Under the pieces are notes generated by a model. The model worked only from the letters and a program-made list of their open reading frames with translations, was not told where the DNA came from and ran no database searches. From Frankia casuarinae (GTDB lineage Bacteria; Actinomycetota; Actinomycetes; Frankiales; Frankiaceae): a stretch of DNA of 64,000 bases. The position numbers were made by a program, and so were the translations under genes. The DNA lies in NCBI RefSeq assembly GCF_000013345.1, contig NC_007777.1:496001-560000 (forward strand), written 5' to 3'. The stretch's first letter is position 1. Every line of letters starts with the position of its first letter. Positions 5,370-30,504 of the stretch are shown one piece after another.

Positions 5370-6997
<1,628 letters not shown>

Positions 6998-12743: not shown

Positions 12744-12870
12744 GCATGAAATGTGGTGGACCGATGCCCGGGACTCCCGCAGGTGGGACTCCCGCGGAGG
12801 GGAGCCCCGCCGAGGGGCCGGCTGGGGGACCGGCGCGCACCGGACGGAGTCGGGCACGGGTGGAGCCGGC

Positions 12871-14115
12871 GTGACGCCCCCTGGTCCGGCCGGTCCGGCC
12901 GGTTCAGCCGGAGTCAACCCCGCCTACAGCGTCACGGTCCGCGTTCCGCACCGGGCCACGATGATCATCGAGGCGGTCGTCGCCGCAGCCCCCGGCCCCG
13001 TGACGTGCTACGCGGACGAGCCGGACCCCGGGGGCGGCCGGCGGATCACGTTGGATGCCGACAGCGGGTCCACATTGACCTGGCTGGTCCGGGCGCTGCG
13101 GGAGCGGCTGGGTGCCGACCTGTTGCAGACCGAGGATCCCGTCTTCACCGTCGCGTCGACCGGCAAACTCGCCCAGTGTCTCCGCGCGTCGGTCACGACC
13201 GGTCACGATCTTGCGTTGTTGGACGCTGACGCCGACCGCCGCGTCATCAGTCACCTGGCCATGCACCCGACGCACACCGACCGGTTCACCGGCCGGCCGC
13301 GTCGAGTGGCGCTGCTCACCGACGGCAGCGCCGTCTTGGACTTTGAGCCGCTGGCCGCCGAGGCGGCCCTGCCAGCGGTCGAGTCCCAGGCGGTCCACCT
13401 ACACCGGGCGACCGGGTTCGACGTCATCCCCATGCCGATCGCAGCCCGTACCGCCGCCGAGCTCGCCGCGGCGATCGGCATGATCGCTCCGGGATTCGCC
13501 GCCACCGTCCTGGTCCACACGCATGTCCGCCGCATCGACGCCGCCCGCGCCGCGCTGCGGTCCGCCGCCCCGCATCTGCTGCTCGACACCGTCAACGACG
13601 GTCTCGCCGTCGCCGCCGCGGCCGCGGTCCTCAACCATCTCCGGGCGCGTGACATCGCGCCGGGGCGGGCCCGCGTCGCCGTCGTGGACCCGGCTCGGGG
13701 CGGCGATCTCGCCGGCTTACTGATCGGTGTCGGCCTCCACGAGATCACCCTCTACGATCCGGTCGACTACGGCATCCAGCCGCTGCACCTGCTTGCCCCC
13801 GAACTCGATCTGATCGTCGACCTGATCGGCTTGGCGGCGCCGCCCAAGGGCGTTCCCGTCCTGCGGATCCGCCCGGAGACGCCCCCTCCGCTGGCCCGCG
13901 CCACCTCGGGCCCGCGTCCGCTGCACGCGCTGCCCGGACTGCTGCGGGCGGTCGTCACCACTCGCCGCCCGGTCACCCCCGCTGCCCGCCTCGCCGCCGT
14001 GCACGCCCTCGTCGGTCAGACGCCGCCCGGCAGCGTGCTGCCTCCCCTCGACCATCCACGGCTAGCCCCCGCCGTTGCCGCGGCAGCCACCCACGCCCTC
14101 ACCGCGCAGGAGTAG
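12871..14115 (+). CDS. Malic-enzyme-like protein lacking catalytic residues
   Basis: No enzyme function can be assigned. The 414-residue product aligns by eye with ACT-domain-containing malic enzymes: an N-terminal ACT-like stretch (YSVTVRVPHRATMIIEAVV), then RVALLTDGSAVLDFEPLAAE and AALPAVESQAVHLHRATGFD, which parallel the family's VAVVTDGSAVLGLGNLGP and AALPVMEGKAALFKRFAGVD. The catalytic Tyr of AYTPGVA, the Lys of EGKAALF (here ESQAVHL) and the metal-binding EDI and FHDDQHGTA motifs (here LLDTVNDGLAV) are replaced. A nucleotide-binding-like region follows (VAVVDPARGGDLAGLL). Start is uncertain (GTG 12871, or ATG 12751 in the same frame). Likely a pseudoenzyme with a ligand-sensing role, but this is inference. 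Confidence 0.6.
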   Translation: MTPPGPAGPAGSAGVNPAYSVTVRVPHRATMIIEAVVAAAPGPVTCYADEPDPGGGRRITLDADSGSTLTWLVRALRERLGADLLQTEDPVFTVASTGKLAQCLRASVTTGHDLALLDADADRRVISHLAMHPTHTDRFTGRPRRVALLTDGSAVLDFEPLAAEAALPAVESQAVHLHRATGFDVIPMPIAARTAAELAAAIGMIAPGFAATVLVHTHVRRIDAARAALRSAAPHLLLDTVNDGLAVAAAAAVLNHLRARDIAPGRARVAVVDPARGGDLAGLLIGVGLHEITLYDPVDYGIQPLHLLAPELDLIVDLIGLAAPPKGVPVLRIRPETPPPLARATSGPRPLHALPGLLRAVVTTRRPVTPAARLAAVHALVGQTPPGSVLPPLDHPRLAPAVAAAATHALTAQE

Positions 14116-14646: not shown

Positions 14647-15087
14647 TCAGCTCGGCGCGGGGACGAGGTCCAGCAGCGCCTGAGCGGCAAGCTCGTATCC
14701 GAGGGCCCCCAGGCCGACGATCACTCCCCGGGCGAGTGCCGAGAGAATGGATTCGTGCCGGAAGGACTCCCGAGCCCAGACATTGGAGAGATGGACCTCG
14801 ATCCACGGGTTCGGATAATTGGCCAAAGCGTCACGAAGGCTCCAGCCGTACATCATCAGCGCACCTGGATTGACGATCGCACCGATCGAGTCGTAATTAT
14901 CCTGAATAGTGTGGATCAATTCACCTTCGGATTCACGTTGTACGGAGACAAGTTTCCATCCGCGGTCCGAGATCCGAGCCGCGACGGCCGCCTCGATATC
15001 GGCCAGTGTCGCCGTGCCGTAGACTTCCGGCTGGCGTCGGCCGAGTATGCCCAGATTGGGGCCATTCAGGAGAAGTAGCGTGGTCAC
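14647..15087 (-). CDS. rifJ: Aminodehydroquinate dehydratase (RifJ-like, type II DHQase)
   Basis: Predicted to convert aminodehydroquinate to aminodehydroshikimate in AHBA synthesis. The 146-residue type II dehydroquinase has NGPNLGILGRRQPEVYG (with the loop Arg and catalytic Tyr), SEGELIHTIQ, the anionic-site motif VNPGALMM, and EVHLSNVWARESFRHES (catalytic His). The His normally found in the INPGAxTH motif is Met here, which separates it from housekeeping AroQ. It lies divergent from the AHBA synthase gene, with the rest of the AHBA set beside it. Housekeeping shikimate function cannot be excluded from sequence alone, but context favours RifJ. Confidence 0.82.
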   Translation of the reverse strand: MTTLLLLNGPNLGILGRRQPEVYGTATLADIEAAVAARISDRGWKLVSVQRESEGELIHTIQDNYDSIGAIVNPGALMMYGWSLRDALANYPNPWIEVHLSNVWARESFRHESILSALARGVIVGLGALGYELAAQALLDLVPAPS

Positions 15088-15411
15088 GGCGCCTCACAGA
15101 CATGCTGGCCGGCTCGATGGTCGGCGTTTCTGATCCGGAACCCCACATTTATAGCAAAGCCACCTGCTGGACACCCGCAAGCAGAAAGGGCCAGCTGGGG
15201 TGTTCTTCTCAAGTCTATCTGTAGTCAGTCCGTTGATATTAGCGTGTCATGTCCGGGGGCGATGGGGAACCCGGGGGTACCGAGGTACCGTCCGTCATGC
15301 ATCCTCTCGCGTAGATTCCTTCGCCGATCGCGATAATGGAACCGTCGACGGAACCTCGATCCCGGCGCGAAGAACAACGATACGGTCACGGGCAAGAAAA
15401 GGGTGGGGATC
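15088..15411. promoter_or_regulatory. Divergent promoter region between rifJ-like and rifK-like genes
   Basis: A 324-bp AT-richer gap that must carry the promoters for both transcription directions. It contains an isolated double palindrome (GGTACC, 2 bp, GGTACC at 15276-15289). No clear -35/-10 pair could be fixed by eye, and no additional gene is seen. Confidence 0.5.
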
Positions 15412-16578
15412 ATGATCGGTAGAGCACGGCCAGCGCCGGAGTTGCCGGCCTGGCCGCAGTACTCCGACGAGGAGCGCGGTGGTCTGATCCGGGCGTTGGA
15501 ACAGGGCCAGTGGTGGCGCATGGGCGGCAGTGAGGTCGACGCTTTCGAGCGGGAATTCGCTGCCTACCACGGGGCCGGCTACGCCCTCGCCGTAACCAAC
15601 GGGACGCACGCGTTGGAGCTCGCGTTGCAGGTCCTGGGGGTTGGACCCGGCAGTGAGGTCATCGTGCCGGCGTTCACCTTCATCTCCTCCTCGCAGGCGG
15701 CCCAGCGCCTCGGCGCGGTGGCCGTGCCGGTCGACATCGACCCGGGCACGTACTGCATCGGGGTCACCGCCGCGGCGGCCGCGGTGACCCCGCGCACTCG
15801 GGCGATCATGCCGGTGCATATGGCGGGCCAGGTCTGCGACATGGACGCCCTGGCGAAGCTGTCCGCGGATGCCGGGGTTCCGCTGATCCAGGACGCGGCG
15901 CACGCGCACGGTGCGCAGTGGCAGGGTAAGAAGCTCGGCGAGCTGGGCTCGGTGGCGGCGTTCAGCTTCCAGAACGGCAAGCTCATGACCGCCGGCGAGG
16001 GCGGCGCCGTCACCTTCCCCGACGCCGAGCTGTACGAACTCGGCTTCCTGCGGCACAGTTGCGGGCGGCCACGCACGGACCGCCGGTACCTCCACCAGAC
16101 CTCCGGGTCGAATTTCCGGCTCAACGAGTTCTCCGCCGCGGTCCTGCGTGCCCAGCTCGGCCGCCTGGCCGGCCAGATTGACACGCGTGAGGAGCGCTGG
16201 CCGGTGCTGGCGGGCGCGCTTGCCGACATCCCGGGCGTCGTCCCGCAGGGCCGCGACGACCGGTGTGACCGCAATCCGCACTACATGGCGATGTTCCGGT
16301 TGCCCGGGTTCAGTGAGGAGCGCCGCAACGCGTTCGTCGACGCCCTTGTGGACCGCGGGCTGCCCGCTTTCGCCGCGTTCCGGGCGATCTACCGGTCCAA
16401 CGGCTTCTGGGAGACCGGCGCCCCGGACGAAACGGTGGACGAGATCGCGAAGCGCTGCCCGAACACCGAGGCGATCAGCGCGGACGGCGTCTGGCTGCAC
16501 CATCGGACGTTGCTCGGCACCGAAGAACAGATGCACCAGGTCGCGGCCATCGTGGCCGAGACCCTGGCCGAGCTGTGA
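15412..16578 (+). CDS. rifK: 3-amino-5-hydroxybenzoate (AHBA) synthase
   Basis: PLP enzyme that aromatises aminodehydroshikimate to AHBA; with the adjacent oxidoreductase it also acts in kanosamine formation. The 388-residue product is the same length as RifK and shares its hallmarks: PAWPQYSDEERGGLIRALEQ, EQGQWWRMGG, AVTNGTHALELALQVLGVG, DAAHAHGAQWQGK, the PLP-lysine site SFQNGKLMTAGEGGAV and the late motif VWLHHRTLLG. This phrase set distinguishes AHBA synthases from other DegT/DnrJ/EryC1 sugar aminotransferases. ATG 15412 follows a purine-rich stretch; the GTG at 15403 is an alternative. Its stop overlaps the next start by 4 bp (GTGA). Confidence 0.95.
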   Translation: MIGRARPAPELPAWPQYSDEERGGLIRALEQGQWWRMGGSEVDAFEREFAAYHGAGYALAVTNGTHALELALQVLGVGPGSEVIVPAFTFISSSQAAQRLGAVAVPVDIDPGTYCIGVTAAAAAVTPRTRAIMPVHMAGQVCDMDALAKLSADAGVPLIQDAAHAHGAQWQGKKLGELGSVAAFSFQNGKLMTAGEGGAVTFPDAELYELGFLRHSCGRPRTDRRYLHQTSGSNFRLNEFSAAVLRAQLGRLAGQIDTREERWPVLAGALADIPGVVPQGRDDRCDRNPHYMAMFRLPGFSEERRNAFVDALVDRGLPAFAAFRAIYRSNGFWETGAPDETVDEIAKRCPNTEAISADGVWLHHRTLLGTEEQMHQVAAIVAETLAEL

Positions 16579-17705
16579 GCCGAGGCGAGACCGGCAACCC
16601 CACGCGGACTCCGCTGCGGGTCGCCGTGGTGGGGCTGGGCTGGGCCGGCCGGTCGATCTGGCTTCCCCGGCTGCGAGAACACCCGGAGTTCGTCGTGGTC
16701 ACGGCCGTCGATTCCGATTCCGGGGCCCGCCGGGCGGCGGCCGGGGCCGACCCGGGCCTGGCCGTGCTCGCCGACGTCGACGAGATCGACCGGACTCAGG
16801 TCGACCTCGCGGTCGTGGCGGTGCCCAACCACCGGCACGCCGACATCGCAGCCCGGCTGCTGAGCGCCGGTATTCCGGTTTTCCTGGAGAAGCCGGTGTG
16901 CCTGAGCTCGGCCGAGGCCGACCGGCTCGCGGCGGCCGAGCGCGCGGGCGACACCATCCTGCTCGCTGGGAGCGCCGCGCGGTACCGGGCGGATGTCAGC
17001 CGGCTCTACGAGCTCGCCGACGGGCTCGGTGCCATCCGGCACGTCGATCTCGCCTGGATCCGGGCCCGGGGCATTCCCGACGCCGGTGGCTGGTTCACCC
17101 GGCGGGACCTCTCCGGCGGCGGAGCCCTGGTAGACCTCGGCTGGCACCTGCTCGACACCCTCACCCCGCTGCTGGGCAGCGTCCGTTTCCAGCAGGTGGT
17201 CGGGACGATCTCGGACGACTTCGTCAGCGACGGCTCCTGGGTGGCCTCCTGGCGTCACGACGATGGCACCGGGCCGGCTGTCGGCGTCGGCGGTGACGTC
17301 GAGGACACCGCACGTGGCTTCCTGGTCACCGAGAACGGGGTCTCGGTGTCGTTGCGGGCGAGCTGGGCCTCGCACGAGGCCCGGGACGTCACCCTGATCA
17401 ACGTCGAGGGTGCCGCGGGCACCGCGTCGCTGCGCTGCACGTTCGGTTTCGGTCCAAACCGGCAGGATCGTTCGGTTCTGACCCGCACCCGGGCCGGCGA
17501 GACCGTGGCGGTGCCTGTGCCCGACGAACCGATCGGAACGGAGTACCGCCGCCAGCTCGATGAACTGCCCGCGCTGCTGGCGGATCCCGCGTCCCGGGGG
17601 CGGGCGATCGAGGAGGTCCGCCCGACGATCGCCGCCATCGAGAGGTTCTACGACTCCGCGCGCTCGCACCGGTCCGTCGCGCCGCTCGCGCACGCGACTC
17701 GCTGA
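16575..17705 (+). CDS. rifL: GFO/IDH/MocA oxidoreductase (RifL-like)
   Basis: NAD(P)-dependent oxidoreductase that pairs with AHBA synthase to make 3-amino-3-deoxyglucose nucleotide (kanosamine precursor). The 376-residue product opens with a Rossmann motif (LRVAVVGLGWAGRSIWLP), has the family Lys in FLEKPVCLSSAEA and GGGALVDLGWHLLDTL in the C-terminal substrate domain. The GTG start overlaps the AHBA synthase stop (GTGA), and the gene is followed 78 bp later by a RifM-like phosphatase, the same order rifK-L-M as in the rifamycin cluster. A 12-bp unit (cacgacctgtgt) is duplicated at 17717-17740 just after the stop. Confidence 0.88.
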   Translation: MSRGETGNPTRTPLRVAVVGLGWAGRSIWLPRLREHPEFVVVTAVDSDSGARRAAAGADPGLAVLADVDEIDRTQVDLAVVAVPNHRHADIAARLLSAGIPVFLEKPVCLSSAEADRLAAAERAGDTILLAGSAARYRADVSRLYELADGLGAIRHVDLAWIRARGIPDAGGWFTRRDLSGGGALVDLGWHLLDTLTPLLGSVRFQQVVGTISDDFVSDGSWVASWRHDDGTGPAVGVGGDVEDTARGFLVTENGVSVSLRASWASHEARDVTLINVEGAAGTASLRCTFGFGPNRQDRSVLTRTRAGETVAVPVPDEPIGTEYRRQLDELPALLADPASRGRAIEEVRPTIAAIERFYDSARSHRSVAPLAHATR

Positions 17706-17783
17706 GGTCACGCATCCACGACCTGTGTCACGACCTGTGTCACGAATATCGAACGGCACCCAACGTCGAGCCCGGGGGGGCAC

Positions 17784-18575
17784 GTGGGAACTGAGCTGAA
17801 ACCCTGGTCGGCCATGACCACCACCGGGACCGGTGCGGGGACGACCATCGGGACCGGTGCGGCGTCCGGAACACGGAAACGTGCGGTCATCTTCGATCTC
17901 GACGGGGTGCTGGTCGACAGCTTCGGAGTGATGCGGCAGGCGTTCACGATCGCCTACGCCGAGGTCGTGGGTCCCGGCGAGCCCCCGTTCGAGCAGTACA
18001 ACCGGCACCTGGGACGCTACTTCCCGGACATCATGCGGATTATGAATTTGCCGCTGGAGATGGAGGAGCCGTTCGTCCGCGAGAGCTATCGGCTGGCCCA
18101 CCAGGTGGTGCTCTTCGAAGGGGTCGCCGCGCTGCTGCGGAGCCTGCACGAGCGCGGCCTCGGGCTCGCGGTCGCCACCGGCAAGGCGGGTCCACGGGCC
18201 CGGCACCTGCTGGGTGAGCTCGACATTCTGCCGATCTTCGATTATGTCATCGGCTCTGATGAGATCGCCCGTCCCAAGCCGGCGCCGGACATCGTGAACC
18301 GGGCACTTGAGCTGTTGGGCGTGGCGCCGAATGAGGCGATGATGATCGGGGACGCGGTCGCCGACCTGGAGAGCGCGCGTGCGGCCGGCGTGATGGCGGT
18401 GGCCGCGCTGTGGGGCGAGGCGGACGGCGCCGAGCTGGTCGCGGCCGGGCCGGACGCGGTGCTGCGCCGGCCCGCGGAGTTGCTGTCCCTTCTCCGGCCG
18501 CACCCGGTCGAACCCGCCGGCACCGCCGGTGTCCCCGCGGCTCAGGCCAGCCGGCCGATCCTCGCCGGCGACTGA
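17784..18575 (+). CDS. rifM: HAD-family phosphatase (RifM-like)
   Basis: Predicted phosphatase of the AHBA route (dephosphorylation step upstream of kanosamine). Residues 33-260 form a HAD domain: AVIFDLDGVLVDSF (nucleophile and acid Asp), ATGKAGPRAR, and the Lys/Asp motifs SDEIARPKPAPDIV and MMIGDAVADLESARAAGV. Phrases such as NRHLGRYFPDIMRIMNLP are close to RifM. A 30-residue Thr/Gly-rich N-terminal extension (GTG 17784) may be an annotation artefact, as no better in-frame start with a ribosome site was seen. The 3' end overlaps the convergent kinase gene by 34 bp. Confidence 0.85.
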   Translation: MGTELKPWSAMTTTGTGAGTTIGTGAASGTRKRAVIFDLDGVLVDSFGVMRQAFTIAYAEVVGPGEPPFEQYNRHLGRYFPDIMRIMNLPLEMEEPFVRESYRLAHQVVLFEGVAALLRSLHERGLGLAVATGKAGPRARHLLGELDILPIFDYVIGSDEIARPKPAPDIVNRALELLGVAPNEAMMIGDAVADLESARAAGVMAVAALWGEADGAELVAAGPDAVLRRPAELLSLLRPHPVEPAGTAGVPAAQASRPILAGD

Positions 18576-19579
18576 GCCGCCAGGAGCGCTCCGAACAGGG
18601 AGGACAGGCCGCCCAGCAACGCTGGGCGGACGGGCGCGGGCGGATGTCCCGGACGGGCAAGGGTCTGGGCGTGCTCGGCGACCGCCCGCGGAAATCCAGG
18701 CAGGCCGGCCGCGAACCCGCCGCCGACCACCGCCATCGCGGGATGCAGCAGTTCGGTCAGCCCGATGACGGCCGTGGCGATCGCCGCGGCACTCTCGCCC
18801 ACCGTCCGCACCGCCCAGGCGTCGGCCGCGAGCCAGGCTGCGCGCAGTTCGGCGAAGGTCACCTCCGCACCACGCCGCTGGGTGGCCCGGCGCAGGGTGG
18901 CCGGCCCGGACGCGGTTGCCTGCACACATCCGCGGCGGCCGCAGTCGCAGCTGGGCCCGTCGGACGAGATGATCAGATGTCCGATCTCGCTGGAGCCGCG
19001 ACCGGGCCCCGGGCAGGACCGGCCGCCGAGCACGATCCCGCCGCCGACGCCCGTCCCGACTCCCAGGTAGACCACGTTCTCACAGCCGGCCGCGTCCGCC
19101 TCTGCGAGCGCGGCCAGATCGCCGTCGTCGCCGCAGACCACGGTGCTGCCCGGCAGCAGATCCCGCAGCGCGGCGCCGAGGTCGAGCCCGGTCCAGGCCG
19201 GCCGGCCCGGCCATGTTGTGACCCGGCCGGCGGCGTCGATGGTCGCGGGCATCGCCACGCCGACGGCGTCAACCCGACCGCCCCATCGGGCAGTCAGCGC
19301 GGCAACGTGTGCGGCGAGATCGTCGATGTCCTGGGTGGCGGTCGCCGACGGCGACCACTGGAAGGTTGTCTCCACCGGCCTGACGGGACCCTCCGGTCCG
19401 CTCGGCCTGCTCGGGCCGATCTGCTCGTCGCCTCCCATCGGGTTCGTCCCGGCCTGTGCGGCCCCGGCCTGTGCTGTCCTGGCCTGTGCTGTCCTGGCCT
19501 GTGCGGCCTCGATGCGCAGCGCGACCTTGGTGCCGCCCACGTCGATACCCAGACAGCCGGTTGGGGATGGTGCACGCAT
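18542..19579 (-). CDS. rifN: ROK-family sugar kinase (RifN-like, kanosamine kinase)
   Basis: Predicted to phosphorylate kanosamine to the 6-phosphate, the entry step of the aminoshikimate branch. The 345-residue product has the ATP site CLGIDVGGTKVALRI, the catalytic Asp region in VVCGDDGDLAALAEA, the glycine-rich GVGTGVGGGIVLGG and the ROK zinc motif CDCGRRGC. Odd: residues about 24-43 are a low-complexity insertion encoded by a 15-bp tandem repeat in four copies (19451-19510), placed right after the first strand pair. Convergent overlap of 34 bp with the phosphatase gene. Other sugar specificities are possible, but the neighbours point to kanosamine. Confidence 0.85.
   Translation of the reverse strand: MRAPSPTGCLGIDVGGTKVALRIEAAQARTAQARTAQAGAAQAGTNPMGGDEQIGPSRPSGPEGPVRPVETTFQWSPSATATQDIDDLAAHVAALTARWGGRVDAVGVAMPATIDAAGRVTTWPGRPAWTGLDLGAALRDLLPGSTVVCGDDGDLAALAEADAAGCENVVYLGVGTGVGGGIVLGGRSCPGPGRGSSEIGHLIISSDGPSCDCGRRGCVQATASGPATLRRATQRRGAEVTFAELRAAWLAADAWAVRTVGESAAAIATAVIGLTELLHPAMAVVGGGFAAGLPGFPRAVAEHAQTLARPGHPPAPVRPALLGGLSSLFGALLAAQSPARIGRLA
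19451..19510. repeat. 15-bp tandem repeat, four copies, inside rifN-like gene
   Basis: Units ggcctgtgcggcccc, ggcctgtgctgtcct (twice) and ggcctgtgcggcctc are arranged head to tail. The length is a multiple of 3, so the frame is kept and the repeat encodes an Ala/Thr/Gln/Arg-rich stretch in the kinase. Confidence 0.9.
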
Positions 19580-19595
19580 GAGCCCTCGCAGGTCG

Positions 19596-20417
19596 TCAGG
19601 CGGGTGCCGCCGGGACGAGATCGAAGAACGAGCGGTAGAAGCCGATCTGGTGGGCGAGCATGTGGATGCCCGGATGGGTCGGCAGGCCGAGTGCGGCCGC
19701 GGCCCGCAGCAGGCGGGTGTCGGGCGGTTTCATGATGATGTCCGCCACGACGCAGCCCGCCGCGAGCCCATCCGGCGGGAAGGGGAGCGGATCGTTCGGA
19801 CGCAGGCCGAGCGGCGTGGCGTTCACCGCGAGATCGACATCGTGCAGCAGGGGTGTCGCGACGCCGACGGCGCGGTCCGGCCAATGCTCGTCGAGGCGGG
19901 CGAGCAGGCCGTCGCGCTTCTCCCGATCCGGATCGTAGATCGACAGCCGTGTGCTGCCGGCGTCGAGCAGCGCGGCCGCGATGGCGCTGCCGGCGCCGCC
20001 CGCGCCCAGTAGCGAGACCCGCGTTCCGGCCACCGGACGTCCGGCGGCCGTCAGTCCCCGGACGAATCCCGCTCCGTCGAAGTTGTCGGCCTGCCAGCGC
20101 CCGGACGGGCCGCGGCGCAGTGCGTTGGCGCTCCCGCTGATCGCGGCCGCCGGACTGCGTTCGTCGGCAAGGGCGCAGGCGGCGGCCTTGTGCGGAATCG
20201 TGATCAGGATGCCGTCCAGGTTCTCGATGCGCCGGAGTCCATCGAGCACGGCGGGGAAGTCCGCCTGCCGGGCGTGCACCGGTACGAGGACGGCGTCAAG
20301 CCCGAGTTCGTCGAACAGCGGATTGAGTAACGACGGCGCCTGTACCTGTTCGACGGGATCCCCGACGACGGCGAACAGACGGGTGGCGCCCGTGACAGCA
20401 TGCGCGGCCGGTGGCAC
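19596..20417 (-). CDS. rifI: Aminoquinate/shikimate dehydrogenase (RifI-like)
   Basis: NAD(P)-dependent dehydrogenase of the shikimate dehydrogenase family, found in AHBA clusters although not strictly needed for AHBA. The 273-residue product has the N-terminal substrate domain (LFAVVGDPVEQVQAPSLLNP; DGILITIPHKAAA, containing the catalytic Lys), a Rossmann motif RVSLLGAGGAGSAIAAALLD and NATPLGLRPNDPLPF. In housekeeping AroE the substrate loop reads S-S-P, here V-QAPS. GTG start at 20417, 5 bp after the end of the rifG-like gene, so the two form one transcript. Confidence 0.85.
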   Translation of the reverse strand: MPPAAHAVTGATRLFAVVGDPVEQVQAPSLLNPLFDELGLDAVLVPVHARQADFPAVLDGLRRIENLDGILITIPHKAAACALADERSPAAAISGSANALRRGPSGRWQADNFDGAGFVRGLTAAGRPVAGTRVSLLGAGGAGSAIAAALLDAGSTRLSIYDPDREKRDGLLARLDEHWPDRAVGVATPLLHDVDLAVNATPLGLRPNDPLPFPPDGLAAGCVVADIIMKPPDTRLLRAAAALGLPTHPGIHMLAHQIGFYRSFFDLVPAAPA

Positions 20418-20422
20418 GGGCG

Positions 20423-21502
20423 TCAGGCCAGCGGCCCGCGCGGCATGTCGCCGAGCGTCTTCATGACCAGGTCCTCCGGAATGTCGCCCACCAGCTGTGG
20501 GCCGTCCGCACCGTCGAGCACGAAGGTGAGGCCGGTGTTCGTCGACTTCTTGTCCAGACGCATCACGGCGACGAGTTCGGCGGCGTCCGCCTCGGTGGGC
20601 AGGGCCGTCGGCAGCCCGTAGCCGCGGACCACGTCCAGGTGCTCGCGGACCCGATCGTCCCCGATCCGGCCGAGCTCCCCGGCGAGACGGCCGGCGAACA
20701 CGGTGCCGATCGCCACCGCCTCACCGTGGCGCAGCACGAAGTCGGTGACGCGCTCCAGGGCATGCCCCAGGGTGTGGCCGTAGTTGAGGATGTGGCGCAG
20801 GCTTGAGTCCCGTTCGTCCCGAGCGACGACGGCGGCCTTGAGCGCCACGCTGGCGGTGATCTGCTCCGTCACCGGCAGACCGCGCAGGTCCCCGGTGCCG
20901 ATGAAGTGGGCCCGCGCGATCTCGCCGTAGCCGTTGATCCACTCCCGCCGGGGCAGGGTCCGCAGGTGGTCGGTGTCGCAGAGGACGGCGCTGGGTTGCC
21001 AGTAGGCACCGAGGAGGTTCTTGCCGGCGGGCAGGTTCACCGCCGTCTTCCCGCCGACGCTCGCGTCCACCTGGGCGAGCAGGGATGTCGGGAGGTGTAC
21101 CACCGCCACGCCGCGGTGGTACAATGCCGCGGCGAGCCCGACGACGTCCGTGGTGGTTCCCCCGCCGCAGGAGATGACGACGTCCGACCGGGTCAGCCCG
21201 AAAGCCGCGAACCGGCCGCAGAGCGCCTCGACGTTCGACAGGTTCTTGTCCGCCTCGCCGTCCCGTGCGGCCAGCCGCAGTACCGGCACGCCCGGGTCGG
21301 GAACCGCGTCCTGCGGCCGCGCCGAGACGATGACGGCCCGCCGGGCGCCGATCCGCGCGACGATGTCGGGCAGGATTCGGCGGACCCCGGGACCGATATC
21401 GATCGGATAGCTGCGTGAGCCGAGGTCCACCGAGACCCGTCGATGATCGGCGGTGATCTGCTCGATCGGACTCGTCCGCTGTGCTGTGAGCATGCCCGTC
21501 AC
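20423..21502 (-). CDS. rifG: Aminodehydroquinate synthase (RifG-like)
   Basis: Cyclises aminoDAHP to aminodehydroquinate. The 359-residue product follows the dehydroquinate synthase fold: GGGTTTDVVGLAAALYHRGV, LPTSLLAQVDASVGGKTAVN, GKNLLGAYWQPSAVLCD, the metal-site HILNYGHTLGHALE and the late LDKKSTNTGLTFVL. Instead of the housekeeping GMAEVVKYGLI it has GYGEIARAHFI, so the second residue of the E..K pair is Arg; this kind of change is associated with the amino-DHQ synthase branch. Start taken as GTG 21502, with GGAAGG 6 nt upstream; ATG 21493 is the alternative. First gene of the rifG-I-N transcript, divergent from a MarR regulator. Confidence 0.88.
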   Translation of the reverse strand: MTGMLTAQRTSPIEQITADHRRVSVDLGSRSYPIDIGPGVRRILPDIVARIGARRAVIVSARPQDAVPDPGVPVLRLAARDGEADKNLSNVEALCGRFAAFGLTRSDVVISCGGGTTTDVVGLAAALYHRGVAVVHLPTSLLAQVDASVGGKTAVNLPAGKNLLGAYWQPSAVLCDTDHLRTLPRREWINGYGEIARAHFIGTGDLRGLPVTEQITASVALKAAVVARDERDSSLRHILNYGHTLGHALERVTDFVLRHGEAVAIGTVFAGRLAGELGRIGDDRVREHLDVVRGYGLPTALPTEADAAELVAVMRLDKKSTNTGLTFVLDGADGPQLVGDIPEDLVMKTLGDMPRGPLA

Positions 21503-21760
21503 GGTGTGCCTTCCGGATCCGCGGTCGCGTGCTGGCGCCTGCCTGGTGCCTTGCGGTGGTTCTGCACGGGGCCGCCCCGGCAATTCTGCCGTGCCCGGCA
21601 GTCGCACCCTTCCGCCGGGTCGGGTGTGAGCCATCGCACTTCCTCCTTCCGTGCGTCTTCGTCGCTCCCGCGCGCCACCGACGCCCCGCGTGGGTCGGTG
21701 CCCCCGCGTGGATCCGCACCCCGCACGAATTGGTGCATGGTGCACGCAGAGTAGGGTCGT

Positions 21761-22216
21761 GTGGTGGGTTCAGACGACGGCGCGAGGCTCGCGACAGCGC
21801 TCGGACTTCTCCTGACCCGGCCGAACCGGACGCGTCTGTTCGGGGAGTTGCTCTCCTCGGCGGACGTCGGACTCGACGAGGCTGTCTACCCCGTGCTCAA
21901 CGGTCTGGCCCGTACGGGCCCGACCACGGCGCGCAAGCTGAGCATGGAGATCGGCATCGACCGTTCGGTGGTGAGCCGGCACAGTGATCGTCTCGAGGCG
22001 CTCGGGTTGCTGCGCCGTTCGGCCGATCCCGATGACGCCCGCGCGGTCCGCCTGACGCTCACCGACGAGGGCCGGGCCGCCATCGATCGCTCTCGGCGTC
22101 GGCTGGCCGACGTCTTCCAGCGCATGCTCGACGACTGGCCCGCCGAGGACGCGCGTGCCTTCGTCGCCGGCATGGAACGCTTTGTCGCGGAGCATCTTGC
22201 CGGTCGGGACCGGTGA
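21761..22216 (+). CDS. MarR-family transcriptional regulator
   Basis: The 151-residue product is a MarR winged-helix dimer: VYPVLNGLARTGPTTARKLS, recognition helix GIDRSVVSRHSDRLEALGLL, wing RSADPDDARAVRLTLTDEGR and C-terminal dimerisation helices. Start GTG 21761 (GTG 21764 also possible). It diverges from the rifG-like gene across 258 bp that includes two tandem GGTGCA units near 21732-21744, so it is the natural candidate regulator of the AHBA genes. The ligand is unknown. Its stop overlaps the start of a tiny membrane-protein ORF by 4 bp. Confidence 0.88.
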   Translation: MVGSDDGARLATALGLLLTRPNRTRLFGELLSSADVGLDEAVYPVLNGLARTGPTTARKLSMEIGIDRSVVSRHSDRLEALGLLRRSADPDDARAVRLTLTDEGRAAIDRSRRRLADVFQRMLDDWPAEDARAFVAGMERFVAEHLAGRDR

Positions 22217-22320
22217 CCAGGCCGAACCAGGGCAGCGGACGGGGGAAGATTGCAACCTTCGTCGCCATCGCGACGACGCTCATCGGTGTGATCATCGGGA
22301 TTGCCGTTCACGGCTCCTGA
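22213..22320 (+). CDS. Predicted 35-residue single-pass membrane protein
   Basis: GTG at 22213 overlaps the MarR stop (GTGA), suggesting translational coupling. The frame encodes a polar, basic N-terminus (VTRPNQGSGRGK) and one hydrophobic helix (IATFVAIATTLIGVIIGIAV) ending HGS, with a stop at 22318-22320. The helix length and positive-inside charge are what a real small membrane protein shows. Not a family I recognise, and no experimental support can be given. A chance ORF is the alternative. Confidence 0.5.
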   Translation: MTRPNQGSGRGKIATFVAIATTLIGVIIGIAVHGS

Positions 22321-22394: not shown

Positions 22395-22518
22395 GCTTCA
22401 TCTCTCGACGCCGGCGGTTTGGAGGTTCTCGCCTTTACGCTGGCTGCTAGTGACGGGGGAGATGCGCACGGCAACATAGCGGCGCCCGCGGAACATCGGA
22501 AGGCCCGTACCTGCAGGG

Positions 22519-22553
22519 AGGCCGCCCGGCTCGGGGGGTGCCGGGCGGCCTCG
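22519..22553. terminator. Strong bidirectional terminator hairpin
   Basis: GAGGCCGCCCGGC (22519-22531) and GCCGGGCGGCCTC (22541-22553) form a 13-bp perfect stem with a 9-nt loop, in the gap between the plus-strand MarR unit and the minus-strand VOC gene. That position fits a terminator serving both converging transcripts. Confidence 0.75.
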
Positions 22554-22618
22554 ATTGATGATGACATTTGGATGGCCGCCAGGACAAGCCCGCGAGGACG
22601 GCAGGTTTCGGACAGTGA

Positions 22619-23191
22619 TCACCAACCGTTCTGTCCGGCACCCCCGGGGATGAGTTCGATCAGTAGTCCGGAACCCGCGTCGAGATAGGCCCGTCGCGGG
22701 TTCCGAGCGTCCGGCCGGAGTTGCTCGACCAGGCATCCCGCGGCGACCGCCCGGTGCAGGCACGCCGGCAGGTCGTCGACCTCGTAGCCGATGGAGAACA
22801 ACCCCTCGCCACGTTGGTCGAGAATTTCCCGCCCTGTCCACGGCCGCTCGCCGGGTTCCACCAGCTCGACCAGGCTGCTGCCGAAGCGGCCGAACGCGAT
22901 CCGGACGTCCTCGATCATGATCGGTCGATCGCGCCAGACGGCGGGGCCGGAGACGACCCGCGACTCCCACGCATCGACCCCGAGGGAGACGGCATACCGT
23001 TCCCGGGCAGCGTCGAGGTCCGCGACGAGGATGCCGAGATGGTGGAACGTCAGCTCGCCCAGCATCTCCTCGATGACCCTTGCCGCCAGCAGGGCGCAGG
23101 CCGGTGAATGGGGCGTGGTGCGGACGGACGACGACGCCGGATCCGGCGTCGTCCGGATCCAGTCCTCCCGATTCTGGATGATTGTCTCCAT
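22619..23191 (-). CDS. VOC/glyoxalase-superfamily protein
   Basis: Vicinal-oxygen-chelate fold protein of unknown substrate. The 190-residue product has an N-terminal segment of about 45 residues, then a VOC domain starting LTFHHLGILVADLDAARERY, with WRDRPIMIEDVRIAFGRFG and a second half FSIGYEVDDLPACLHRAVAAG ending YLDAGSGLLIELIPG, closest in style to methylmalonyl-CoA epimerase and related enzymes. Metal-ligand candidates are His in HHLG and Glu in LIELIPG. ATG 23191 with GGAGGG upstream; GTG 23194 is equally possible. It follows the halogenase gene on the same strand after a 192-bp gap, so the two may share a transcript. Confidence 0.75.
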   Translation of the reverse strand: METIIQNREDWIRTTPDPASSSVRTTPHSPACALLAARVIEEMLGELTFHHLGILVADLDAARERYAVSLGVDAWESRVVSGPAVWRDRPIMIEDVRIAFGRFGSSLVELVEPGERPWTGREILDQRGEGLFSIGYEVDDLPACLHRAVAAGCLVEQLRPDARNPRRAYLDAGSGLLIELIPGGAGQNGW

Positions 23192-23383
23192 CACCGCGGC
23201 TCCCTCCATGCCCCTGGCCCAGGCAGAGGGCGAGGGCGCCGATCGTATCGCCGTCCTCCGTCCTCCGTCCTCCCTGCTCTCGCCGTTCTGCGGGCTGTTC
23301 TCGCCGTTCCGCGGGTGCCGTCGATCAGGACGATCCCGTCGCGGATGGAGGCGGGATGGCCCCGACCCTCAGCGGCCCGACCT

Positions 23384-25033
23384 TTAGAGGGTTGCCGGAG
23401 TGGGCACCCCACCCGTGCGGGTGAGCAGGTCGTCGAGGTCGTACTCGTACCAGCGGCGGAGCGGCTCGGGGGAACTCGTGCGCCCCCACTCGTACATGCG
23501 GCGCTGGGCTTCGAAGGAGCCGTCGTGCCAGCGGCGCAGCACATCGCCCAGCCGGAGCGGAGCGGGGAGGAAGTCGGCGCCGCCCAGCAGAGTGGCGAGC
23601 CGTTCGACGGCGGCGGCCGGGGCCAGCCGGCCGGCCTCGACCTCGTCCATCACGGCGCTGAGCGAGTCGAAGAAGGGCTGGAATTCCGGCAGATCGGGGC
23701 AGAAAGTGCCCAGATGTGGCGCGTCGAGCAGGCGGTCGAACAGCGCCGGATCGCCCTTTTCCAGATAGCCGAAGTAGGTTCCGACGATCCGGGAGATGCC
23801 CATGTTCCAGCCCAGGAACCACACCTTCGACCACGCCCGCCACAGGTCGAAGTCGCGGAACGAGACATAGGAGCCGTGTACGAGCTTGTCATTGACGTCC
23901 AGGATCGTCTGGTTGAGCGTGTCGATGTGGCCGAAGCGTTCCGCCGAGAAGTCGTCGTCGGCGAGGGCCTCTATCAGGGTTGGTGCGAGGGCGTAGATGA
24001 CCTGCATGGTGTTGGCCATGCCACGGGAGAACAGCGCGTCGATCGCCCCGGCTGCGTGGGACATCATCGCCCAGCGGTCACCGACCGTCCGCGAGCTGGA
24101 GTACTGGGTGCGACCGGTGGAGATCCAGTCCCAGGCGGGCCGGGCACCGGCGAACTGGCGCGCGATACTGGGGAACCGCTCAAGATAAGCGTTCCATTCC
24201 TGCTCGGCGGGTACCGAGGGATCCCTGGGGAAGCGTCGCGAGTCGAGGTTGAGCCCGACGCTGCACAGTGGGTTGGTGGCCCGCTGGTGATTGTCGAACG
24301 GGATCACCCACAGCCAGCCGCCGTCGAACAGATGGTGCAGGGTGCCTTGGTGCCACAGCGACGGCTGCCCGCTCGGGAGGGTCACCTCGTCGAAGGGGGT
24401 GACCCCCACCATGTGGGTGAACAGGGTGCGGGAGTTCGTCCGGAACCGGCAGGGATCCTCTCGCAGGGCGAACTGGTTCGCCAACACGGAGTTGCGTCCT
24501 GAGGCGTCGACGACGTAGCGAACGCGGATCCGTTCGCCGGCCCCTGTCGTCAGCGTCGCGGCGTCGTCGGCGAAGTCGACTTTTTCCACCATCGTGCGTT
24601 GCCGCGGTTCGGCTCCGTAACGGACGGCCGTATAGAAGAGGTAAGCATCGATGTCCTGGCGGTGCATGTGCATTTCCGGGCCGTTCGGAAACTCCGAAAC
24701 GCTGCACTGAGTGACCTCTTCGGGGTTCTGGAGCGCACCCTCGTGGTGGTAGACGAATCCGAAGTTGCGCTTCACTCCGCAGGCCGAGGTGACGTGGGAG
24801 CGGACGCCCTCGAAGCTGCTCACATGGCCGAGCTCGGGGACGTCGAACCGCTGGGCGAGCAACTTCAGCAGATAGGTCGTCTCACCGATGGTCGACTCCC
24901 CGAGCGCGAAACGTGGATGCGTGCCACTGTCAATCAGAACCACGCGGTGACCGTGTCGGGCGAGGATATTGGCCAGCGTCGAGCCGGCGATGCCGCTACC
25001 GAGGATGGCAACCGAATAGTCGTACCCGCTCAT
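23384..25033 (-). CDS. Flavin-dependent halogenase-family protein
   Basis: Predicted FADH2-dependent halogenase acting on an aromatic or carrier-bound substrate. The 549-residue product has the FAD-binding GxGxxG (VAILGSGIAGSTLANILA), the halogenase WxWxIP motif in GGWLWVIPFDN, a lysine-containing ACGVKRNFGFVYHHEG in the region of the catalytic Lys, and VVDASGRNSVLANQF. The long C-terminal region (about residues 330-549) is helical and resembles the CmlS/CndH-like branch. An FAD monooxygenase is the alternative. A good ribosome site (AAGGAG, 8 nt) precedes ATG 25033, and a 15-codon ORF ends overlapping the start. Its place beside AHBA genes suggests halogenation of an aminobenzoate-derived compound, an inference. 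Confidence 0.82.
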   Translation of the reverse strand: MSGYDYSVAILGSGIAGSTLANILARHGHRVVLIDSGTHPRFALGESTIGETTYLLKLLAQRFDVPELGHVSSFEGVRSHVTSACGVKRNFGFVYHHEGALQNPEEVTQCSVSEFPNGPEMHMHRQDIDAYLFYTAVRYGAEPRQRTMVEKVDFADDAATLTTGAGERIRVRYVVDASGRNSVLANQFALREDPCRFRTNSRTLFTHMVGVTPFDEVTLPSGQPSLWHQGTLHHLFDGGWLWVIPFDNHQRATNPLCSVGLNLDSRRFPRDPSVPAEQEWNAYLERFPSIARQFAGARPAWDWISTGRTQYSSSRTVGDRWAMMSHAAGAIDALFSRGMANTMQVIYALAPTLIEALADDDFSAERFGHIDTLNQTILDVNDKLVHGSYVSFRDFDLWRAWSKVWFLGWNMGISRIVGTYFGYLEKGDPALFDRLLDAPHLGTFCPDLPEFQPFFDSLSAVMDEVEAGRLAPAAAVERLATLLGGADFLPAPLRLGDVLRRWHDGSFEAQRRMYEWGRTSSPEPLRRWYEYDLDDLLTRTGGVPTPATL

Positions 25034-25077
25034 TGCGTGACTCCTTGGACGCCGCTATCCGAGGTGGCCGACTGCAT
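25030..25077 (-). CDS. 15-codon upstream ORF overlapping halogenase start
   Basis: ATG at 25077 preceded by AAGGAG at 8 nt spacing opens a 15-codon frame (MQSATSDSGVQGVTQ) whose TGA overlaps the halogenase ATG (ATGA). It contains no run of a rare or regulatory amino acid, so translational coupling is more likely than attenuation. Seen directly in the sequence; function is inference. Confidence 0.45.
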   Translation of the reverse strand: MQSATSDSGVQGVTQ

Positions 25078-25098
25078 CCGCCGCACTCCTTAAAGGAT

Positions 25099-25125
25099 CA
25101 CAATCAGCACAACCAGTACACAACG
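25099..25125. repeat. Short direct repeats upstream of the halogenase unit
   Basis: CACAATCAG (25099-25107) and CACAACCAG (25108-25116) stand head to tail, followed by a third related TACACAACG (25117-25125). A GTAC-8-GTAC palindrome spans the last copy. Located 25-50 bp upstream of the mini-ORF, so these may be a regulator site. The rest of 25126-25261 is AT-rich and shows no gene. Confidence 0.4.
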
Positions 25126-25261
25126 ACGTACTGAACCACCTCTACGGCCCCTGGTCCCAGTAAGCGGTATATCGATGCCGATGGGTAATCAAGATTCCTG
25201 AATCGGAAGTTTGAGTTATATGCCGGATTTGAAACATTTGCTCTATAATGCCCTGATGTCT

Positions 25262-25279
25262 GGGCCCGTCAGCGGGCCC
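25262..25279. terminator. GC-rich hairpin
   Basis: GGGCCCG (25262-25268), TCAG loop, CGGGCCC (25273-25279): a compact 7-bp perfect stem. It sits downstream of the minus-strand selA transcript and upstream of the halogenase unit, consistent with a terminator between them. No T-run. Confidence 0.5.
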
Positions 25280-25358
25280 GCCACGTGCGAAGAAGCGATG
25301 CGGGTCCCCGCCGTCGCCGAGCGAACCGTGAATCGCTTATTTCTCCGTCGTTTTAGCG

Positions 25359-25593
25359 TTAGGTGGAGGTCTGGATCGGCCGTCCACTGATCGTGAACGA
25401 GTCGAGCAGCGTGGACTCCCCGTTCCACCGGTACCGTTCATCCGGGGTCCCCGTGGGTGCGCCGGGCCAGACGAGCAGGTGGACGAGCCCGTAGCAGAGC
25501 AGGGTCAGCGCGGCGGCGACCGAACCCAGCCGTCTCACCGCGCCGGCGAACGCCGGCGAACGCCGGGGAGTCGTAGGGGCGGCCGAGGCTCAC
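25359..25593 (-). pseudogene. Small membrane protein frameshifted by a 10-bp duplication
   Basis: A GTG at 25593 overlaps the selA stop (GTGA) and opens VSLGRPYDSPAFAG. The frame then meets two exact copies of CGCCGGCGAA (25541-25550, 25551-25560). Removing one copy joins it to a second frame that continues AVRRLGSVAAALTLLCYG, LVHLLVW and ERYRWNGESTLLDSFTISG to a TAA at 25359-25361, giving a clean 74-residue protein with one hydrophobic helix. With both copies present the frame is shifted by 1. So either the gene is broken in this strain, or it switches by slipped-strand change, or translation begins downstream at an internal GTG. Protein family not recognised. Confidence 0.6.
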
Positions 25594-29624: not shown

Positions 29625-30377
29625 TCAGACCCGCTCGGGGGTCCGGGACTCGTCACGGCCGATCCGGCCGACCTCCCCGGGGGTGTTCTCCGGCAGCGGT
29701 GCGATGGGCGGCGCGACGAACTTGTACCCGACGTGCCGAACAGTACCGATCATCGCTTCGTGCTCGGGGCCGAGCTTCGCTCGCAGCCGCCGGACGTGGA
29801 CGTCCACCGTGCGGGTGCCGCCGTAGTAGTCGTAACCCCAGACCTCCTGCAACAGCTGGGCGCGGGTGAAGACCCGGCCCGGGTGTTGCGCGAGGTACTT
29901 CAGCAGCTCGAACTCCTTGAAGGTGAGCTCGAGCGGCCGGCCCCGCAACTTGGCCGAGTAGGTGGTCTCGTCGACCGACAGGTCGCCGGACCGGATGACA
30001 CCGGCTTCGGCCGTGCCGCCGGCGGCGGCGACCCGACCGATGGCCAGCCGCAACCGGGCCTCGACCTCGGCGGGACCCGCGGAATCGAGGACGACGTCGT
30101 CAACCCCCCAGTCCGCGGACACCGCCGCCAGCCCACCCTCGGTCACCAGCGCCAGCAGCGGCGTGGTGAGCCCGGTGGTGCGTAGCAGCCGGCACAGACC
30201 GCGGGCGATCACAAGCTCCCGGCGGCCATCCACCACGATCACATCCACCGGCGGGGCGTCCAGCAGCGCGCTCGCCTCGAGCGGGGCGACCCGTACGGTG
30301 TGGGTGAGAAGCCCAAGCGACGGAAACGACTCGGCGGACGGACCGGGGGCGTTGGTGAGCAAAAGGACGACGCTCAA
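29625..30377 (-). CDS. glnR: Orphan OmpR-type nitrogen regulator GlnR
   Basis: Global nitrogen regulator of actinobacteria, activating ammonium transport and glutamine synthetase genes. The 250-residue product has an atypical receiver domain ([40 protein letters not shown] with the conserved Asp; [21 protein letters not shown]) and a winged-helix domain ([59 protein letters not shown]) nearly identical to Streptomyces GlnR. Start is a TTG at 30377 with GGAGGAG 7 nt upstream; the longer ATG frame has no homology. No cognate kinase is adjacent, as expected. A candidate target box is upstream of amtB. Confidence 0.94.
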
Positions 30378-30504
30378 GACGACTCCTCCAGGTGGTGTGT
30401 GGTGGGGCAGCGTCGACCCGGTGAGTAACTCGATGCCCGGCGCTGGGCGTCTCACGACCGTCATGGGCATGAAACGAAGGCCGGTATGTGGGGAGGATAG
30501 CGGA

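Follow-up and report, generated by a model that had tools for sequence, protein, structure and literature searches.

The halogenases of known function closest to the gene described here are CtcP, the chlortetracycline halogenase (PDB 7xgb, 7v0b), and PltM, the phloroglucinol halogenase (PDB 6bza). Further enzymes of interest for comparison have been described. The flavin-dependent halogenases Asm12 and Nat1 belong to ansamycin pathways derived from 3-amino-5-hydroxybenzoic acid (AHBA) (PMC3826140, PMC4785625), Sha1 has been placed between polyketide synthase (PKS) and AHBA genes (PMC3826140), and Frankia alni possesses DklH, modelled by its authors on CndH, which halogenates flavonoids and chlorinates daidzein and chrysin (PMC8539768). 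The subject of this study is a putative halogenase gene of Frankia casuarinae (23384-25033, minus strand, 549 amino acids), which lies beside a set of AHBA genes. All coordinates refer to the window, i.e. the whole stretch of 64,000 nucleotides that was analysed, corresponding to positions 496,001-560,000 of the single-contig genome (NC_007777.1; 5,433,628 bases). A first-pass annotation had suggested that the gene product may be a tailoring halogenase acting on free AHBA or a simple conjugate, and had treated the gene as a unit with the neighbouring gene for a vicinal oxygen chelate (VOC) protein. Distribution and gene order in 35 Frankiaceae genomes and in outside relatives argue against this tempting inference from adjacency. 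Instead, it is likely that the gene encodes an inherited small-phenol halogenase which is independent of the AHBA pathway.

The protein contains the two motifs that had been pointed out before, GxGxxG of the flavin adenine dinucleotide (FAD) site (GSGIAG, residues 12-17) and WxWxIP (WLWVIP, residues 240-245), W240 being present in 85 and W242 in 84 of 85 distinct rows of the family alignment. The open reading frame (ORF) matched Trp_halogenase (PF04820) with an E value of 5.7e-13. Its best sequence matches in the PDB were CtcP (E 1.6e-144) and PltM (E 4.6e-96), followed at about 5e-4 by kynurenine monooxygenases. An AlphaFold2 model built from 18 aligned sequences (predicted local distance difference test, pLDDT, 86.2; predicted template modelling score, pTM, 0.90) retained the whole-length fold including the C-terminal helical region that is also found in CtcP. 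The model aligned with CtcP at Z 48.9 (526 residues, 1.9 A, 42% identity in the structural alignment) and with PltM at Z 47.3 (493 residues, 33% identity), while the next-best fold, ChlB4, reached Z 29.8 and monooxygenases about Z 25. Thus, fold and sequence matches both placed halogenases well ahead of hydroxylases and gave no sign of the grouping with FAD epoxidases or hydroxylases that the first-pass annotation had named as a refutation, and assignment to FAD hydroxylases or epoxidases was rejected since monooxygenase folds scored more than 20 Z units lower. The catalytic Lys, whose presence the first-pass annotation had named as a decisive check, was found as K88. It aligns with K87 of PltM and K98 of CtcP and occurs in 85/85 rows; a K87A exchange has been reported to leave PltM without activity (PMC6424973). 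Comparisons with six Frankiaceae orthologues yielded dN/dS ratios (nonsynonymous to synonymous substitution rates; simple Nei-Gojobori) of 0.11-0.16, which indicates that the gene is maintained. Taken together, the sequence and the predicted structure support a flavin-dependent halogenase of the free-substrate phenolic type, and the gene product is very likely active as a halogenase.

It is highly improbable that the protein is in practice no halogenase but an inactive relative or a flavin monooxygenase. This idea might draw on the motif FxxPxxSxG, a signature of halogenases, which reads AIDALFSRG in the Frankia protein, so that Ser and Gly are kept but Phe and Pro are both replaced by Ala. 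The motif varies throughout the family, however, since Ala occupies the Pro position in 74/85 rows and a residue other than Phe the first position in 27/85. The Trp_halogenase score is also modest, and the same Pfam model gives matches in control genomes of E. coli and archaea, but the invariant K88, a fold that is clearly of the CtcP/PltM kind and purifying selection speak for a functional halogenase. No flavin reductase was recognized beside the gene, a genome-wide search not having been made. The genome contains ten stretches matching the Trp_halogenase model, the strongest of which (203 bits, 505-amino-acid frame, G000:C1:2906197-2907381) scored well above the gene studied here; they may or may not represent halogenases, as the model also matches general flavoproteins.

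To characterize the active-site pocket, the PltM residues reported as phloroglucinol contacts or as lining of the entrance were mapped onto the Frankia protein, which gave the pairs P48/G50, E49/E51, F90/F91, L111/V112, E115/E120, W400/W405, L401/F406, S404/W409 and N405/N410. Besides the Lys, five residues of the phloroglucinol site are retained (E51, F91, E120, W405 and N410). Only E51 and N410 are informative because nearly the whole family shares the other three. By contrast, P48, L111, L401 and S404 of PltM are exchanged for Gly, Val, Phe and Trp. Compared to CtcP, the pocket residues I59, F101 and R349 are kept, while Q61, S421 and W456 correspond to E51, W409 and F444. Neither tetracycline-type nor pyoluteorin-type genes were recognized among the halogenase neighbours scanned, in which the locus differs from those of CtcP and PltM, respectively.

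Six pocket residues (G50, E51, W401, W409, N410 and F444) are invariant in 17/17 Frankiaceae sequences, one per genome. The same signature was detected (3/3; 2/2 for positions 50 and 51, where L101 is gapped) in the three closest outside relatives, which belong to the Micromonosporaceae genera Dactylosporangium, Actinoplanes and Symbioplanes (L098, L099 and L101) and come from genomes without AHBA synthase. In the other 65 relatives, these positions are mostly occupied by Pro, Tyr, Val, Thr/Ser, Met/Ile and Pro. Among them, W409 was found in none, G50 in two, W401 in eight and E51 in at most one sequence, and N410 and F444 do not belong to the five commonest residues at their positions. In a halogenase tree calculated without hydroxylases and without Asm12 and Nat1, the Frankiaceae and the three Micromonosporaceae sequences grouped together with a support of 100 on a long branch. 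The Frankiaceae clade fell on the side of PltM (support 86, with a long-branch warning), while CtcP was located in another part of the tree. The Frankia protein is most likely a small-phenol halogenase from a distinct clade of the CtcP/PltM type. A single substrate class shared by the Frankiaceae and Micromonosporaceae members is the simplest reading, and a small free phenol without connection to AHBA is the probable native substrate. For this uncharacterized but widely kept Frankia halogenase, a concrete prediction can thus be made, namely a small phenol bound in a pocket marked by E51, W409 and N410.

According to the proposed mechanism, reduced FAD (FADH2) would be supplied by a reductase encoded elsewhere. 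Hypohalous acid (HOX) would be formed from O2 and chloride or bromide and then passed to K88. The target would be a small, free and electron-rich phenol, polyhydroxylated and phloroglucinol-like, which may be held by E51, F91, E120, W405 and N410. The gene itself would be an inherited constituent of Frankia and Parafrankia belonging to a locus on the selA side, so that its closeness to the AHBA genes in Frankia may reflect neighbourhood, not pathway, and its tight arrangement with the VOC gene in F. casuarinae would stem from the loss of intervening genes.

The distribution of the gene was studied in the 35 Frankiaceae genomes, using thresholds of E 1e-40 for the halogenase and E 1e-80 for AHBA synthase. 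The halogenase was identified in 17 genomes (11/13 Frankia, 6/6 Parafrankia) and AHBA synthase in 19, comprising all 13 Frankia and all six Parafrankia genomes searched. While the two are linked in Frankia, the orthologue of Parafrankia (81-83% identity) and RifK reside on separate contigs in 6/6 genomes, and linkage with AHBA genes is thus not conserved across the orthologues. In five of the six Parafrankia genomes no Rif gene was present within 7-10 kb of the halogenase, and conversely, the AHBA loci of the six Parafrankia, of which 20 kb each were covered, contained no halogenase relative. The five Parafrankia halogenases with long flanks are instead accompanied by the neighbour HD252, an HpnH-like gene and, in four of the five, a peroxiredoxin gene. 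Two Frankia genomes (G003 and G010) lack the halogenase although the AHBA genes, VOC and pirin are retained; in G003, a peroxiredoxin remnant of 37 residues is left where the halogenase would sit, as expected of a loss. Outside the family, AHBA synthase was absent from the three closest genomes (0/3; best RifK match 45%). It was also absent, at E 1e-100, from 44 of 49 further halogenase-bearing genomes. The 49 genomes were drawn from 50 of 63 loci, and one of them (G035) is also among the three closest relatives. In the six AHBA loci of the five positive genomes, no CtcP-type halogenase was encountered within the 6-40 kb examined. The flanks of 66 non-Frankiaceae halogenase loci, some of which end at contig ends, contained no RifK at the level of AHBA synthases but only two matches of 34% and 40%, and L098, L099 and L101 share no halogenase neighbour matching the Frankia gene set. 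Since adjacency fails in 6/6 Parafrankia, two Frankia and the three outside relatives, a tailoring role in AHBA metabolism is not supported. Distribution and gene order weaken the link, and they suggest that the halogenase sits beside the AHBA genes rather than acting on their product. From the first-pass annotation, the class of a flavin-dependent halogenase can be retained, but not the assignment to AHBA, which had rested on adjacency.

Some observations weigh against a small-phenol halogenase independent of AHBA. The resemblance of the pocket to that of PltM is imperfect because S404 is replaced by W409, and an S404Y exchange has been reported to reduce PltM activity severely (PMC6424973). 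The dN/dS ratio against the distant Micromonosporaceae sequence L098 amounted to 0.46. Of the Frankiaceae genomes, 17 possess both genes, two AHBA synthase only, 16 neither and none the halogenase only. The 17/17 co-occurrence does point to a link with AHBA, but only weakly, since the 17 genomes represent just two genera and give little independent evidence. Within the genus Frankia, each of the nine other loci containing both has the halogenase at 2.2-5.4 kb from the closest AHBA gene. Moreover, the Parafrankia genomes are drafts, in which separate contigs say nothing about the distance between loci, and in G018 the surroundings of the halogenase comprised only 1.5 kb. One could accordingly assume that free AHBA or one of its simple conjugates is the substrate and that the Parafrankia loci, though separated, cooperate in trans. 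This assumption would agree with the co-occurrence, with the adjacency in Frankia, with the existence of Asm12, Nat1 and Sha1 in AHBA-derived pathways (PMC3826140) and with the substrate range of PltM, which is reported to halogenate 18 of 20 compounds including all phenols and anilines tested, one of them with a carboxylic acid (PMC6424973). On the other hand, it has to contend with the separate contigs in 6/6 Parafrankia, with G003 and G010, whose AHBA genes persist without the halogenase, with the occurrence of an identical pocket where the genome has no AHBA synthase, and with AHBA loci of other genera in which no CtcP-type halogenase was present. An action on AHBA is thus unlikely. As PltM is promiscuous towards anilines and a carboxylated phenol, AHBA might well be halogenated in vitro; such activity would not prove a native role, and a test confined to it would mislead.

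A special case of the small-phenol interpretation is an external substrate, i.e. flavonoids or other phenolics of plant or soil origin that the symbiont encounters. It can be considered as a tentative possibility since the gene has been kept in two plant-associated Frankiaceae genera without an obvious dedicated pathway, and the activities of DklH on daidzein and chrysin (PMC8539768) and of PltM, which chlorinates resveratrol and catechin (PMC6424973), point in the same direction. However, relatives with the same pocket exist in Micromonosporaceae, heterologous flavonoid activity is no proof of a native role, and DklH is a different halogenase. Like the protein studied here it is a flavin-dependent phenolic halogenase from Frankia, but it is encoded by a separate gene (501-amino-acid ORF of L197), carries its Lys at position 72 and shows only 25% identity over 335 residues, for which reason orthology was rejected. 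Both genes occur in the genome G001, which is presumably that of F. alni ACN14a. Somewhat more doubtful is the reading that the halogenase and the AHBA genes without PKS, both retained across Frankia and Parafrankia, act jointly or side by side in forming a small halogenated aromatic metabolite of actinorhizal symbionts that has not been described so far. The halogenase would then stem from a clade with its own pocket that was otherwise found only in three Micromonosporaceae among the relatives compared. No published description of this Frankia halogenase or its AHBA genes and no product of PKS-free AHBA genes were found in the literature searched, most subscription journals being outside its coverage.

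The VOC protein (22619-23209, minus strand, 196 amino acids) matched Glyoxalase_4 (PF13669) with an E value of 2.5e-13 and remained far under the cut-off of the methylmalonyl-CoA epimerase model. In VOC enzymes, the His of the GxHH segment is a metal ligand. The metal-binding segment GIHHIAF of 3gm5 reads GLFSIGY in this protein, HH being replaced by FS, and the Frankia counterparts listed have Phe followed by Ala or Ser at the same spot. Hence, the canonical metal site looks incomplete, judging from the alignment. As annotated, the ORFs of the VOC protein and the halogenase are real, supported by Pfam matches, and adjoin the MarR and AHBA genes; the end of the proposed unit at 25077, however, lies 44 bases past the halogenase start codon at 25033. 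Both genes have a coding-type GC content at third codon positions (GC3; halogenase 0.85, VOC 0.84), are oriented in the same direction and are separated by only 174 bp.

This close arrangement appears to be a largely local feature. The region 23408-25226 is collinear with positions 11626-9808 of the locus L097 of Frankia sp. QA3, and 22514-23073 with 14713-14153. The junction between them (23074-23407) comprises 334 bases, compared to about 2.5 kb in L097 carrying peroxiredoxin and pirin genes, which points to a deletion on the side of F. casuarinae. At a second junction (25227-25402), 176 bases are opposed to about 1.85 kb in L097 with two conserved genes (HD252 and p86). Thus, the halogenase and VOC genes are close because genes carried by relatives between them were lost. 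Between the two junctions, a stretch of about 190 bp in front of the halogenase (25034-25226, minus strand), collinear with L097, possibly harbours its own promoter. A functional unit of both proteins, for instance halogenation plus binding of the product or protection against it, is quite improbable. In all ten other Frankia halogenase loci examined the VOC gene follows downstream in the same orientation at a distance of 0.8-3.0 kb, which together with the short distance in F. casuarinae would suit such a unit, but in seven of them an oppositely oriented pirin gene is interposed. Furthermore, the VOC gene persists in G003 and G010 in the absence of the halogenase, the long halogenase flanks of five Parafrankia genomes contain no VOC match, and VOC proteins are only 47-62% identical to their Frankia counterparts compared to 83-91% for the halogenase. 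A halogenase-VOC operon as a conserved unit was consequently rejected on the gene order in relatives. A conserved halogenase-peroxiredoxin operon was not adopted either. Peroxiredoxin matches after the halogenase were obtained in five of 11 Frankia (this genome included) and in four of five Parafrankia with enough flank, the fifth (L096) containing what reads like a degraded copy, and the gene has been lost repeatedly. Another sign of local gene decay is a 27-residue remnant (22228-22308, 74% identity) of p156, which in other Frankia is longer and situated between MarR/RifG and VOC.

The AHBA genes occupy 14647-21745 and encode homologues of seven Rif proteins. RifJ (type II dehydroquinase family, 14647-15087, minus strand) is followed on the plus strand by the AHBA synthase RifK (15403-16578), which matched the AHBA synthase 1b9h with an E value of 2.9e-193, by RifL (GFO/IDH/MocA oxidoreductase, 16575-17705) and by RifM (17784-18575), which scored above the cut-off of TIGR01454, 'AHBA synthesis associated protein'. 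On the minus strand follow RifN (ROK kinase, 18542-19579), RifI (shikimate-dehydrogenase family, 19596-20417) and RifG (amino-dehydroquinate synthase type, 20423-21745), the real start of which probably lies downstream of 21745. A MarR-family regulator gene (21761-22216, plus strand) is divergent from rifG. Scanning the MarR/RifG, VOC-halogenase and halogenase-SelA gaps for inverted repeats revealed many GC-rich palindromes but no convincing operator. RifH was not detected among the genes scanned, and the sole class II 3-deoxy-D-arabino-heptulosonate 7-phosphate (DAHP) synthase gene of the genome is located at 3.65 Mb. As the first-pass annotation had stated, there is no PKS nearby: the genome has 20 ketosynthase matches, all of them outside the window, and the closest is more than 0.5 Mb beyond it. 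No amide-synthase-type protein (PF00797) was found in the genome either, while the same search was positive in 3/14 control genomes. An ansamycin-type cluster, consisting of AHBA genes, PKS and amide synthase, was therefore rejected, as only the AHBA genes are adjacent to the halogenase. Asm12 and Nat1, which belong to PKS clusters, were compared with the Frankia enzyme by description, as flavin-dependent halogenases of AHBA-derived ansamycins.

Some loci of other strains have a different content. In five of the six Parafrankia genomes, the AHBA contig carries near RifG a gene for a single-module adenylation-thiolation-thioesterase protein (AMP-binding, PP-binding, thioesterase) that might load and release AHBA (L189:16285-19017; also in G017, G018, G019 and G021, in some drafts split or with a stop). 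Its Frankia relatives, 44-50% identical, are encoded elsewhere in the genome (25 candidates per genome were scored). One Frankia has an additional AHBA locus (L180, G005:C1290), which contains RifK, RifL and RifM, a distant flavoprotein (25% identity to the halogenase) and, by eye, an end resembling an acyl carrier protein and an amide-synthase-like ORF; it looks like a true ansamycin cluster. In Frankia sp. AgB32 (L182, G006:C239), two further halogenase relatives (50% and 34%) and a third flavoprotein (28-30%) are clustered within about 11 kb. The Parafrankia halogenases of L183, L185 and L093-L096 lie near an HpnH-like radical S-adenosylmethionine (SAM) gene and a gene for a small roadblock-like protein, both names having been given by eye and the small protein having no Pfam match.

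At the other end of the AHBA genes, RifJ is adjoined by an ORF of 454 amino acids (12751-14115) without a Pfam match, which by eye presumably resembles a degenerate malic enzyme. Counterparts with 73-79% identity are present in four other Frankia loci (L176, L177, L195 and L196) but not in L178. The AHBA genes are flanked by amtB-glnK-like genes (5370-6997, recognized by eye) and by glnR (29625-30470, Pfam GlnR_1st); GlnR has been reported as an activator of the rif cluster (PMC7062684).

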